Assembly: GCF_032854445.1 (NCBI RefSeq)
Contig: NC_088300.1
Location: 11,811,191 to 11,875,190 of the forward strand
DNA: 64,000 nucleotides
Source: Liolophura sinensis
Lineage: Eukaryota; Mollusca; Polyplacophora; Chitonida; Chitonidae
Direction: 5' to 3'
Position numbers and translations under genes: made by a program. The notes under the pieces were generated by a model that saw nothing but the letters and a program-made list of their open reading frames with translations, was not told where the DNA came from and searched no databases. This document shows positions 7,493 through 40,100 of this stretch, in pieces. Position 1 is the first letter of the stretch, and every line of letters starts with the position of its first letter.

Positions 7493-10400
7493 TTATTGAT
7501 GGTTTTTGTTTTCAAGCATACCTTTTTCATTCGGGGATTTCGTTAGTGTTTTCGCTGGTGCGCTAGGAATGATAACGGGTTCGTTCATTTGGAGATTGCT
7601 AACAGACATGCCTGTTCTTGCGTCTTGGTGGCACATCAGTGGATTGTTCCGTCTGAAAATAAACGTAAAATTTGTAAATGACTAAGTTCTGCGTATGGTA
7701 AATCAATCTTACCTGAAAAGGAATAGAATCTTCCACTTTACTGAAGACCAAGGTACCATTCCAAGAAAAACCGTATCAAAAATTGGAAAAATGATTTTTC
7801 CGTCCAGAAAAATGTTACTTGTCCCAGAAATGAAATGTTCTTAACCAAGGCGTCAAACACATATCGATAATTAAATCAATCTACCATTATACCTGCACTT
7901 TGCAAGGTGGGTTTTAAATAAATTCCGTGCCCAGACGCGTTGAAAGTGTCTTCGGAATTGAACGGAAATGCCCCATCATCATCTTTAATTCCAAGACATT
8001 TTTGATAAGGTGACAGCATATAACAAAACACAGCACAGAGAGCAAAATCAAAACAGAGGCGACAGCGACGACACTGATTCGCAAAGATATGTATACATCG
8101 AGATGATAATCAGAGTTTTCTTATTCTCAAAACAATAGAGCATGACCTATAAAAAAATTATACCTGCGGGGATCGACTATTTTGTAGATAGTTCCGTCGG
8201 CTAGGTATGATCGAGATGATGCTGAAGCCAGCATGTAGACCTCCCCTGAAAATACAATGTAACGCATAGCTAAGCCAGTCAACGTACAAGTATAAAACTC
8301 GGTTCCATATATTTGTGTTGCCCATATTCTTCATAGCACGACATAGTGGATGAGAGAGTCAAATTAAGACAAATTAATACATCTTTACAGAATTTTGCCC
8401 CTTTGTGTTTCGTAAAATGAATGTGGGCTAAACAGGTAACGTCTGGCCGCTGACATGAATAACATCTCCATTAACAGAATTTATGAGACTATAACAACAA
8501 CGTTTATAGACAATCAGCATTCACCTGAGCTGTTTATATCCACGTTAACATCTACAGCAGGCCTCGTGGCTTTTATTGTTTAGCTGACTTTGTTCACCAC
8601 AGCTGTCCTTTTATTAAATTTAGTTATATGATTGGTGATTTCCGCCGTACTCAAGAATATTTGACATATACAACGGCGGCCAGTATTATGGTGGGAGGAA
8701 ACCGGGCAGAGCCCGGAAGAAATCCATGGCACGACCATCCGCAGGTTGCTGGCAGACCATCCCACGTAGGGCCGGAATAATTTATGATCATTTTAACATT
8801 ATAAATAGTACAGGTAAGACTCTGGGACCGTTTTCACAAAGCGGCGTACAGCATTTATTGATCGTACATTTGTACGATACTAGGGTTTGGTCCGTCACTA
8901 TGAACGTACCATATTACTATATGTGCGATATGGTATAAGTACGACATCTTTGTGAAAGTGGCCCTGATATTTACTGCAAGTCAATAATATGAGCTCTATT
9001 CTTTGTAAATAAAAAGCATTTGATGTAAATAGTAAATATATGTAATTTTCTCGCGGTAATATGTTGGAAATGGTAACTACCTTTACGAACTCACAGTTTA
9101 TATGATCACCAATCGACATACATGCGACTCACAGTGATGTACTGGAAATGGTAACTATCCTTACGGACTCACCCTTTATATCTTCCAACAAAAGATATAC
9201 ATGTGACTGGAAATGATGTACTGGAAATGGTAACTATCCTTACGGACTCACCCTTTATGTCTTTACAAAACGACATACATGCGACCCACAGCGAAGTACT
9301 GGAAATGGTATCTATCTTTACGGACTCACCCTTTATGTCTTCACCAAACGACATACATGCGATCCACAGCGATGTACTGGAAATGGTATCTATCTTTACG
9401 GACTCACCCTTTATGTCTTCACCAAACGACATACATGCGACCCACAGCGATGTACTGGAAATGGTATCTATCTTTACGGACTCACCCTTTATGTCTTCAC
9501 CAAACGACATACATGCTACCCACAGTGATGTACTGGAAATAGTAACTATCCTTACGAACTCACCCTTTATGTCTTCACCAAACGACATACATGCGACTCA
9601 CAGCGATGTACTGGAAATGGTAACTATCTTAGCGGGCAAAAGACCAGCCTCGTCTGTGCACGTGTTACTATTCAAAATCAGTAATAAAATTCCTAAAATT
9701 TGCACAGCAGTTCTCATTGTAACTTTTTCAAATTTTATGATCATTCTAACATTATAAATAGTACAAGTAAGACTCCGCGGACACTTACACAAAGCGGCGT
9801 ACGACATTTATTTATCGTACATTTGTCGTACGACACCCGTATTTTGTTCGTCACTATTAACTATTAACATATTTACTATATGTGCGATATCGTACAAGTA
9901 CGACATCTTTGTGAAAGTGGCCCTGATATTTACTGCTGGGCAATAATTTGATCTATATTCTTTATAAATAAAAAGCATTTACTGTAATTAGCGAATATGT
10001 AATTTTGCCAAAAAAATCTCCGGTATAGCCACTTTATTAGACTTCAAAGGACATAGCCTGTGGTTTGAAGAGGGATTGGAATTTGTCTTGACCCACTCAC
10101 CTCTCCTATCCTCAGCAAACGACATAACCCACTGAGAATGCTGGAAATGAAGCCCGTTGTTGCAATACTCTGGGCCACACATGTCGATTTGTCTTACACT
10201 CACCTCTCCTATCCTCAGCAAACGACATAATCCAATGAGAATGCTGGAAATGAAGCCCGTTGTTACAATATTCTGGGCCACACATGTCGATTTGTCTTAC
10301 ACTCCCCTCTCCTATCCTCAGCAAACGACATAATCCACTGAGAATGCTGGAAATGAAGCCCGTTGTTACAATACTCTGGGCCACACATGTCGATTTGTCT

Positions 10401-37100: not shown

Positions 37101-40100
37101 ACTTGGCTGGATTGGGTCTGGACTTTGGGTTAGCACCAACTAATTCACAATAGTTTGGTACCAAGTTTTTTTGGCACCTATAGAAGAAAAAAGAAAGTGT
37201 TGAACGATGCAATCATGAATCTAGATCCTTACATACCAATATAATTTATATTTCTTCAGACTTATGTTCTTTCAATTTTAATGAATTTATGGTTTTACGA
37301 GTGAGGGATACCAAGTTAACGTTCACTTCAATTACCAGGCATATAAAGATTAACACTATATCCAATGACACAGGTAAAATTATTTTACATTCCAATTTTC
37401 CAGGCAATTCATTAATAATACCTTTCCTAAGGATTTCAAAGATGATGTTCCTGGCAGAGATCCATTGAACACTTCCCATATTAAACATCCCAGTCCCCAC
37501 ATATCAGCTGACCTTCATGTTTAGAAAATACCATGCATGTAGTGGGGGGTTTCAATTGCAAAGCCACAAATTTAAAAGTACTTTGTTTTAGCATTCTGTA
37601 GAACAAGAGAACTGTACAATCAACACATAAATAATGCTCAACTGATGAATTCCAAAATCAATCCACAATGATAAATTACTTTCTCATTTCATAAGCTATT
37701 AAGCTGCAAGATTTCTCAATCTAGATTAAATAAACAAACTTAAATATTTATATCATGCAGCCTGAGACTATTTCTAAAACCTGTCTTTCTCTGTAAAAAT
37801 TACCAATGTATTCCTACCACGTCTGGCCAAAATATCTTATTAAGGGTTTACTACGCATATTTAGAGTTTACCATGGCCCGCCTTTTGGTCCACCACGAGG
37901 TTCTGTCTTTTCAGGAGGATCATATCGCTCCAGGGCGGGCAAGATCTTAACTGGAGGGTAACTGTCCGGCCCCTGGGCAGGAAACATATAGTCCACACCC
38001 CCAAGCTTCCACTCTCCAGCTTGGTCAACAAAGATGGATGACATGCAGACATTGTTATGTATCAGCTTACAGTCATTGACCAGGAATGACAGGCCTTTCT
38101 ACAACAAGTGAAAACATGAAGACAAAACGTGACCAATGTATGAGTATACATGTACATGTATCAGCTTACAGTCACAGGCAAGGAATGACAGGCCTTTCTG
38201 CAACAGGTGAAAACATGAAGACAAAACGTGACCAATGTATGAGTATACATGTACATGTATCAGCTTACAGTCACAGGCAAGGAATGACAGGCCTTTCTGC
38301 AACAGGTGAAAACATGAAGACAAAATGTGACCAATGTATGAGTATACATGTACATGTATCAGCTTACAGTCACAGACAAGGAATGACAGGCCTTTCTGCA
38401 ACAGGTGAAAACATGAAGACAAAATGTGACCAATGCATGAGTATAAACCTGCTAACCTATATGAGCAGTACATAACACAGAAGTGACTAACACAGAAACA
38501 AGGATGCTCTCAACTTTATTTATCTTGATGTATAGGATCTTGCACATGTATCTTGAGCCCAAGCTTTATTTGTTTATTTATCTGATTATTGTATTATGCC
38601 ATACTTATAATATATAGAATATTTTAGTTACATGACAACGGTCAGTGTTATGGTGAGAGGAAACCGGGCAAACCCCAGGGGAAACATCCTGGGTAATGCA
38701 CTAGCATGTTAACCACTCTGCCAATAACATTGATATCAGACACCCTCATAACTAATTTCAAGTCCAGCTCATGCTGGCTTCCTCTCCGGCTGTACGTGGG
38801 AAGGTCTGTCAGCAACCTGCTTATGGTCATGGGTTTCCCCGAGCTCTGCCCGGTTTCCTCCCACTATAATGCTGGCCGTCGTCCTATGAGTGAAATATTC
38901 TTAAGTATGGAGTAAAACACCAATCAAATAAATAAATAAATCATAACTAATTTAAACATTTGCAAAATGTGTTAAATGTGAAAATGTACTGTTTAAATCG
39001 GATCTAATGTTAGATTTGTTCATCTATTAATTTCTTTCATGGCCCAATGAAGACTAGCTCACTTAACTGTTGGCACAAAGGTTTTTGGGTCTGAAATCAT
39101 GCAGAGCCTTGTTGTTCAGAGATTACGTTTCTAGATTATTCTATGGCACATTGTACAGATATCATATTAACTGTGCCCTACCTATACCATTTGTCACTTT
39201 GAAAGTGGGTTATGATCAAACCCCTGTCCCTGTATAGTTACCTCTTTATAGTTCATGTGACAATGTGACAGTGTAGACAGTGAACTTACTGTAATTTGAT
39301 GAAGTCCCCAGGAAATGGCCAGCTCATTCTGTGTGCTGCTCTGCTTGTTATCTCTCAGGTAAGTCTCTAGTGGGGTTACTGGCTCGGTTACAATATATAT
39401 CACTTTGTCACTCTACAAACAGAACACAAATAGTCTAACAGCACTTGGAGCAACAGCACTAGGAGCACCAGCAGACAGGGCATGGCACACCGAGTTGGGA
39501 GTCGTGGAATACAGATGCACCTATTCACCAGAATATATTACCAACCAAGAGTAGCTGGTAACTTCTACAAATTGCATGCTAATTTCAATTATCGCATTCC
39601 AAGGTCAACTTTTACACATCATGAGTTTACACATCAAATTTTCATAACTTTTCTCAAAAATCATATTGCTTTATGGCCCTATAAACACAGTCATTTATGC
39701 AAAACGATATTCATGGTATGAAAGCAACCACTGTGTTGTTGAAGTTAAACAACACTTTACACACACACAGGCAATCTATTTACGGGTTTTGTGACACTAC
39801 ATAAAGGGCATAACACATCAATATTTACTGATGAAATCCATACCACAGAAATCAAATCAGTATTTTTACATTTGCTTTCCACACACAGCTTACATGAACT
39901 TCACAAAATGTACTAAAATCCATTACATACTGTGAACTACATTAAAGATTATTTAAACTGATTGGTGATTTACGAAGTTCACAGATTCCCGACAAATATA
40001 AACGAAGATTTTCTGTTACAATATAATAACGCAGCTTGCACTGCTTCACAATCAAAATCACAATCATTTGTTTTTCATGGTTTTCATGGTGCTTTTTGCA

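Follow-up and report, generated by a model that had tools for sequence, protein, structure and literature searches.

Minisatellites whose repeat units join the end of a coding exon to its own splice site were found at exon-intron boundaries in the chiton Liolophura sinensis. The first examples lie in a window of 64,000 nucleotides (the whole stretch of DNA that was analysed, C6:11811191-11875190, from a genome of 609,464,459 bp in 632 contigs), where they occupy three junctions of an HHIPL gene and one of a candidate SCYL1 gene. Further examples were obtained from kinase genes sampled elsewhere in the genome, and boundary arrays recur across unrelated genes. The arrays are probably mirages, as minisatellite-like tandem copies of an intron-exon boundary are called in amphioxus (PMC3087553), and would have arisen by ordinary tandem duplication across a junction, tolerated as nearly neutral.

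Tandem arrays were called with Tandem Repeats Finder (TRF), and the array positions given below are TRF rows. Arrays with a period of at least 10 covered 7.8% of the window and 7.6% of the sampled kinase loci. Ab initio gene finding with codon-usage training was abandoned (mean coding signal of 0.16 bit per codon). The HHIPL gene lies on the minus strand; its exons 1-8 were spliced in silico, with the exon-proximal copy chosen at each repeated splice site, and gave one open frame of 616 amino acids, with GT/AG present at 15/15 checked junctions. The protein matched the Pfam families GSDH (E 4.2e-33) and Folate_rec, and its top match among solved structures was human HHIP (3ho3, E 4.2e-62). The second candidate gene, putatively SCYL1, is also on the minus strand; in a Pfam search its 584 amino acids gave a HEAT match that passed the cut-off and kinase-like matches that fell short of it. 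The SCYL1 exon ends were placed by eye and some may be at least one base off, which leaves the counts unaffected; exon 5 is numbered as in a preliminary description of the window, and its lower end was taken as 37873 in the computations. The exons and arrays concerned were as follows.

14841..15800, minus strand: HHIPL exon 1, from start codon to donor, in the open frame obtained by in-silico splicing.
14434..14519, minus strand: HHIPL exon 2, its acceptor (14519/14520) lying within the 44-bp array.
14485..14654, minus strand: the 44-bp array, 3.9 copies (TRF and unit alignment).
13645..13817, minus strand: HHIPL exon 3, its donor (13644/13645) lying within the 22-bp array.
12752..13663, minus strand: the 22-bp array family, in several TRF rows, repeating the exon 3 end and the donor GTAAGG.
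10925..11067, minus strand: HHIPL exon 6; the first array unit is formed by its final 93 bp together with its donor.
10094..11017, minus strand: the 103-bp array, 9.0 copies (TRF and unit alignment).
37872..38098, minus strand: SCYL1 exon 5, its acceptor (38098/38099) lying within the 99-bp array.
38057..38445, minus strand: the 99-bp array, 3.9 copies (TRF and unit alignment).

Unit-by-unit alignment of the four junction arrays showed that the splice site is flanked by 19-93 bp from the end of the exon and by 3-57 bp of intron. The 44-bp unit consists of 35 bp of exon 2 with the acceptor, and the array grows upstream into intron 1; the 103-bp unit consists of 93 bp of the exon 6 end and 10 bp of intron with the donor GTGAGT, and grows into intron 6; the 99-bp unit consists of 42 bp of exon 5 and 57 bp of intron with the acceptor, and grows upstream into the intron. 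Two donors and two acceptors are thus represented, and growth is intron-ward in all four. The splice dinucleotide was intact in 1/3 intronic copies of the 44-bp array (AG), 6/8 of the 103-bp array (GT) and 3/3 of the 99-bp array (AG). A protein search returned tandem exon-6 matches across the 103-bp array. By eye, the exon copy is an outlier among the units in HHIPL exon 6 and SCYL1 exon 5.

The preliminary description had listed five junction-seeded arrays, and TRF recovered all of them (44, 22, 103, 78 and 99 bp). Four hold the real junction and extend only into the intron, as TRF, in-silico splicing and unit alignment agree, and the exon is the ancestor of the units, as had been proposed; the fifth, of 78 bp, does resemble the end of exon 6 but stands at no placed junction. 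The four had also been said to begin at the real junction. The junction is indeed inside each array; the array edge, in contrast, was found 35 bp (exon 2), 19 bp (exon 3), 93 bp (exon 6) and 42 bp (SCYL1 exon 5) into the exon, so that exon sequence is part of every unit.

The 22-bp family extends far into HHIPL intron 3 (12591-13644, 1054 bp, minus strand). In this intron 32 donor-like motifs were counted (12-mer, at most 3 substitutions), against a mean of 0.86 and a maximum of 6 in 200 mononucleotide shuffles of the intron, and a mean of 0.71 and a maximum of 6 in 58 other stretches of the window of the same length. With fewer than one motif on average in either control, much of intron 3 looks derived from its own donor, and the intron seems to be built largely from degenerate copies of the exon 3 donor.

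Recurrence was examined in kinase genes. From 135 Pkinase matches in the genome about 60 that looked multi-exon were picked, and 40 loci were taken blind to arrays (20 of 10 kb and 20 of 4 kb, 280 kb in all). These loci were used to build a kinase profile, with which 91 exons were located. Reading frame, phase and a generic weight matrix then decided the splice sites, and 150 junctions resulted, of which 90 came from exon pairs and 60 were single. Kinase-profile matches with E of at least 0.5 and matches on the opposite strand (one in L019, for example) were dropped, as were the window's own kinase match and two matches within the L033 array. A junction counted as a hit if a TRF array enclosed it and reached at least 5 bp beyond it in both directions. 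By this measure 6/150 junctions, at 6 loci, were in arrays, three at donors and three at acceptors and all growing into the intron:

L018 5029; L020 5099; L043 779: arrays at kinase acceptors.
L030 1931; L033 595; L039 1925: arrays at kinase donors.

Unit alignment showed that in all six the repeated sequence is the exon end and splice site of the gene concerned; at L039, TRF includes 5 bp of exon and the unit resembles about 20 bp of exon. Another 38 exons, recognised by eye as kinase-like or FN3-like among candidate translations, enlarged the sample to 223 junctions, of which 7 were in arrays, the added case being the donor at L017 4181. The L017 exon had been spotted through its array before counting, and the set of 150 is therefore cleaner than that of 223. 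By locus, 7/40 carried a junction array (4 donors and 3 acceptors). With the four of the window, 11 junction arrays were confirmed, 5/11 at acceptors and every one intron-ward. At the donor L020 1642 the TRF edge is 3 bp inside the intron and the units resemble the exon end by eye; this array was left out of the six and the seven. Also left out of the counts were three arrays with strong donors and no identified exon (L021:759-1168, L011:26-265 and L041:3875-4000), which may be further boundary arrays.

The number of junction arrays was compared with a uniform-seeding null, in which one unit per array was placed uniformly. As arrays make up about 8% of the DNA, 1.9-2.0 junction arrays per 150 and 3.0-3.2 per 223 are expected from chance seeding. 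The 6 observed among 150 junctions compare with 2.0 expected (Poisson p 0.017) and with a permutation mean of 1.88 (p 0.010); the 7 among 223 compare with 3.2 or 3.1, depending on the threshold (p 0.045 or 0.037), and with a permutation mean of 2.97 (p 0.024). In the window, HHIPL had arrays at 3/15 junctions (2 and 1 under stricter TRF scores) against 0.40 expected, and SCYL1 at 1/33 against 0.29, these being the ascertained cases that had drawn attention. A further comparison set array edges in the terminal 60 bp of exons against those in the introns beside the same junctions. For the 150 junctions, 6 edges were seen against 2.23 expected (27 edges in 109 kb; p 0.026), or against 1.65 when period was at least 20 and score at least 100 (p 0.007); for the 223 junctions, 7 were seen against 4.3 (p 0.15) or 3.3 (p 0.05). 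In a footprint comparison, junctions were covered less than the loci as a whole (6 against 11.3 and 7 against 18.4 for the two sets); since inner units raise the coverage of introns, this comparison was not made the main test.

Splice-site motifs were scored in 70 array units, a set that takes in the ascertained window. Donor motifs of at least 10 bits were present in 11/70 units; random segments and dinucleotide shuffles each gave 2.6, and 0/60 replicates reached the observed level. In the kinase loci alone 8/59 units held strong donors, against about 2.3 in shuffled units, two of the eight belonging to one tract. Acceptor motifs in the 70 units gave no consistent excess: against random segments they were found in 35/70 units at 6 bits (29.6 expected; 2/60 replicates reached this), 20/70 at 7 bits (17.3; 13/60) and 6/70 at 8 bits (8.0; 53/60), and against shuffles in 20/70 at 7 bits (14.2; 2/60). 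Taken together, a weakly significant border excess of 2-3-fold is suggested, not established.

Conservation of the intronic copies was measured in 12 arrays, the 11 confirmed and the donor L020 1642. The splice dinucleotides were intact at 45/50 sites, with 5/100 bases mismatched, compared with 95/1900 exon-derived bases (5.0%) and 65/1714 intron-derived bases (3.8%) elsewhere in the copies. In these 12 arrays the spare intronic splice sites were conserved no better than their surroundings, with no sign of selection, and their conservation was rejected as evidence of function since they mismatch like the flanking bases. In 11 arrays TRF places an edge within the exon; among them only that of SCYL1 (99 bp) has a unit that is a multiple of 3; L020 would be a second if TRF's 81-bp consensus were used in place of 80 bp. 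As unit lengths are mostly not multiples of 3, the copies are not in-frame coding modules, an interpretation that was accordingly rejected. Judging by unit length, splicing at an inner copy would put the message out of frame in most arrays.

Near HHIPL, copies of the exon 6 end were found away from the junction, in the following places.

9065..9630, minus strand: the 78-bp array in intron 6, resembling the exon 6 end with a donor-like GTGAGT.
2646..2853, minus strand: a 70-bp array between HHIPL and a tandem paralogue, resembling the exon 6 end with GTGAGT.
9734..10006, minus strand: a stretch of intron 6 beyond the 103-bp array, part of a local duplication.

The 78-bp array, which coincides with no placed junction, aligned with the exon 6 end at a score of 37 (76% over 59 bases), and the 70-bp array, absent from the preliminary list, at a score of 52 (71% over 79 bases); 0/300 mononucleotide shuffles matched the score in either case. 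On this resemblance the 78-bp array is an exon-6 relic in intron 6 and the 70-bp array is another. The stretch 9734-10006 is 87% identical, over 267 columns, to 8781-9049 beyond the 78-bp array, and this identity beyond both arrays indicates that exon 6 was locally duplicated with its downstream intron. The 103-, 78- and 70-bp arrays are taken to have one common ancestry, in which case they are not independent. A short open frame directly upstream of the 78-bp array (9640-9720, minus strand) looks like a signal peptide by eye and may be due to chance.

Protein searches placed a tandem HHIPL paralogue next to the window gene (C6:11803304-11811595) and others at C12:13668855-13677475 and C6:8911944-8917661. 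The beginning of a second HHIPL gene is seen at 1-430 (minus strand), in a family with tandem and dispersed paralogues. Among the 30 matches listed, with the best candidates scored, tandem exon-6 matches were confined to the HHIPL gene of the window. Paralogue DNA was compared in two loci (L045 and L046) of 3.1-3.3 kb each. In the 3.1 kb that surround exon 3 in the C12 paralogue (paralogue c, L046), TRF detected no exon-3-type array; the sole array there has a different unit, of 26 bp, and the exon-3 array is therefore not shared at that place.

Other repeats in the window include a 24-bp array at 25400-25750 (14.6 copies, 96% match), away from every placed exon, a degraded reverse-transcriptase fragment of a long interspersed nuclear element, seen by eye at 6050-6900 (plus strand), and copies resembling short interspersed nuclear elements, also by eye, for instance at 2310-2540.

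For mirages in the sense given above, the proposed course of events is short. A tandem duplication that happened to cross an exon-intron border would seed a minisatellite; the exon-proximal splice site would still yield the original mRNA, and later copies would sit in the intron and be removed by splicing, making the change close to neutral. The array could then expand and homogenise like any minisatellite. An unchanged mRNA, when the spliceosome uses the exon-proximal copy as presumed here, would be the reason why the duplication is tolerated. The direction needs no further cause: with the real junction defined as the exon-proximal copy, extension is necessarily intron-ward, and tolerance of such growth, one of the two explanations first offered, suffices. 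Minisatellites abound in this genome, and one would accordingly be expected at a few per cent of the junctions. Two observations weigh against this account as it stands, namely that more junction arrays were observed than expected whichever form of the seeding or intron-edge test was applied (p 0.007-0.15), and that strong donors were enriched even in the kinase-locus units; together they imply that neutrality with uniform seeding may be an incomplete account. The other explanation first offered was a mutational process favouring borders, which would seed tandem duplications there more than at other genic positions, for instance by transcription- or composition-linked slippage at a sharp border. 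Such a bias is a tentative alternative. It would account for the excess in both junction sets (permutation p 0.010 and 0.024), for the intron edges of the 150 junctions (p 0.026 or 0.007) and for the strong donors that no replicate reached. The intron-edge test was weaker in the larger set, however, where one of the seven hits had been spotted via its array; the donor test includes the ascertained window; and acceptor motifs were without consistent excess, yet 5/11 confirmed arrays are at acceptors. Support for a border-favouring process is thus weak, and it is doubtful that chiton borders are true hot spots of minisatellite birth, at 2-4 times the level of other genic positions and with thousands of mirage junctions.

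Selection for the repeats themselves, with spare splice sites serving as a splicing buffer or as a source of regulated isoforms, as in human IFI6, seems improbable. Most intronic dinucleotides are intact (45/50), and downstream repeat units reportedly serve as donors in IFI6 (PMC4526556); this intactness nevertheless equals the general similarity of the copies (5.0% mismatch against 5.0% and 3.8%), splicing at an inner copy would change the frame with nearly every unit, and the C12 paralogue has no such TRF array near its exon 3. Collapsed or expanded repeats, or false tandem copies, in the assembly are a very improbable cause. According to the assembly paper, in which the species was first named Liolophura japonica (PMC11068029; corrected to L. 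sinensis in PMC12441733), the PacBio HiFi reads (14X) have a mean length of 8,347 bp, far above the longest array (924 bp); moreover, units differ from each other by substitutions, and the same anatomy is seen at 7 kinase loci. That a single dispersed repeat family landed at splice sites is scarcely credible and, in agreement with the preliminary description, was rejected. Three arrays (103, 78 and 70 bp) are related to one another, but the link between them is HHIPL exon 6; every unit carries its own gene's exon end, lengths and sequences differ, and a genome-wide DNA search with the single query 9000-9300, which skips very common words, matched its own array alone.

Boundary minisatellites, previously reported from amphioxus and single human cases, are thus common in a mollusc, at about 3% of sampled junctions. 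Whether junctions draw in tandem duplications or only conceal them can be tested against this figure. The arrays can mislead annotation: each unit mimics an exon end that has a good splice site, and protein searches yield numerous false copies of the exon, HHIPL exon 6 being an example. If borders were hot spots, the process, already reported in amphioxus genes, would independently supply this lineage with intron growth and spare splice sites.

The preliminary description knew of no named system of this kind; mirages are, however, named as such in two amphioxus papers (PMC3087553, PMC3902484). There they are described in Adh3 and in globins, BflGb6 and BflGb9 (PMC3087553), and also in TnC and PGBD5 (PMC3902484), with units of 10-72 bp in Adh3 and 150-160 bp in the globins (PMC3087553). 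Donors and acceptors are both affected, AG/GT is kept in many but not all copies, and the results suggest that splicing is undisturbed (PMC3087553, PMC3902484); length and somatic instability are also described (PMC3087553). The chiton arrays share units that span the exon-intron boundary (4 in the window and 7 in kinase loci), intronic copies with the authentic boundary as the exon-proximal one (the open HHIPL frame; 11/11 intron-ward), involvement of both boundaries (2 donors and 2 acceptors in the window, 4 and 3 in kinase loci) and AG/GT kept in most copies (45/50 in 12 arrays). They differ in belonging to a mollusc and to other genes, whereas amphioxus is a chordate, and with unrelated genes in the two phyla the origin is presumably convergent. 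For the chiton a rate was estimated against a null (7/223), whereas amphioxus has RNA and polymorphism data and the chiton arrays are known from the assembly only.

Among human cases, Turri in 1995 reportedly described a minisatellite with multiple splice donors in IFI6 (6-16). Minisatellite units carrying splice donors are shared with the chiton; the difference lies in the inner copies, which in IFI6 are reportedly used for isoforms (PMC4526556), whereas their use in the chiton would usually shift the frame. Local duplication that takes in splice signals can lead to intron gain or change, as described in PMC2812944 (see also PMC4974935 and PMC3443670). Duplicated splice signals are common to intron gain via tandem genomic duplication, to human internal tandem repeats at boundaries and to the chiton arrays. 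Those systems make or alter an intron, whereas the chiton arrays lengthen an existing one with the mRNA predicted unchanged; at HHIPL, the only gene in which this was tested, the three arrays adjoin introns that the open frame already requires, and no new intron was created. Searches of open PMC papers turned up no recognisable boundary array in a mollusc, and the accessible part of one such paper describes an intronic minisatellite in an abalone kinase gene, without mention of a boundary (PMC6905558). As far as these searches show, the chiton arrays are probably mirages in a new phylum, with a first rough rate.

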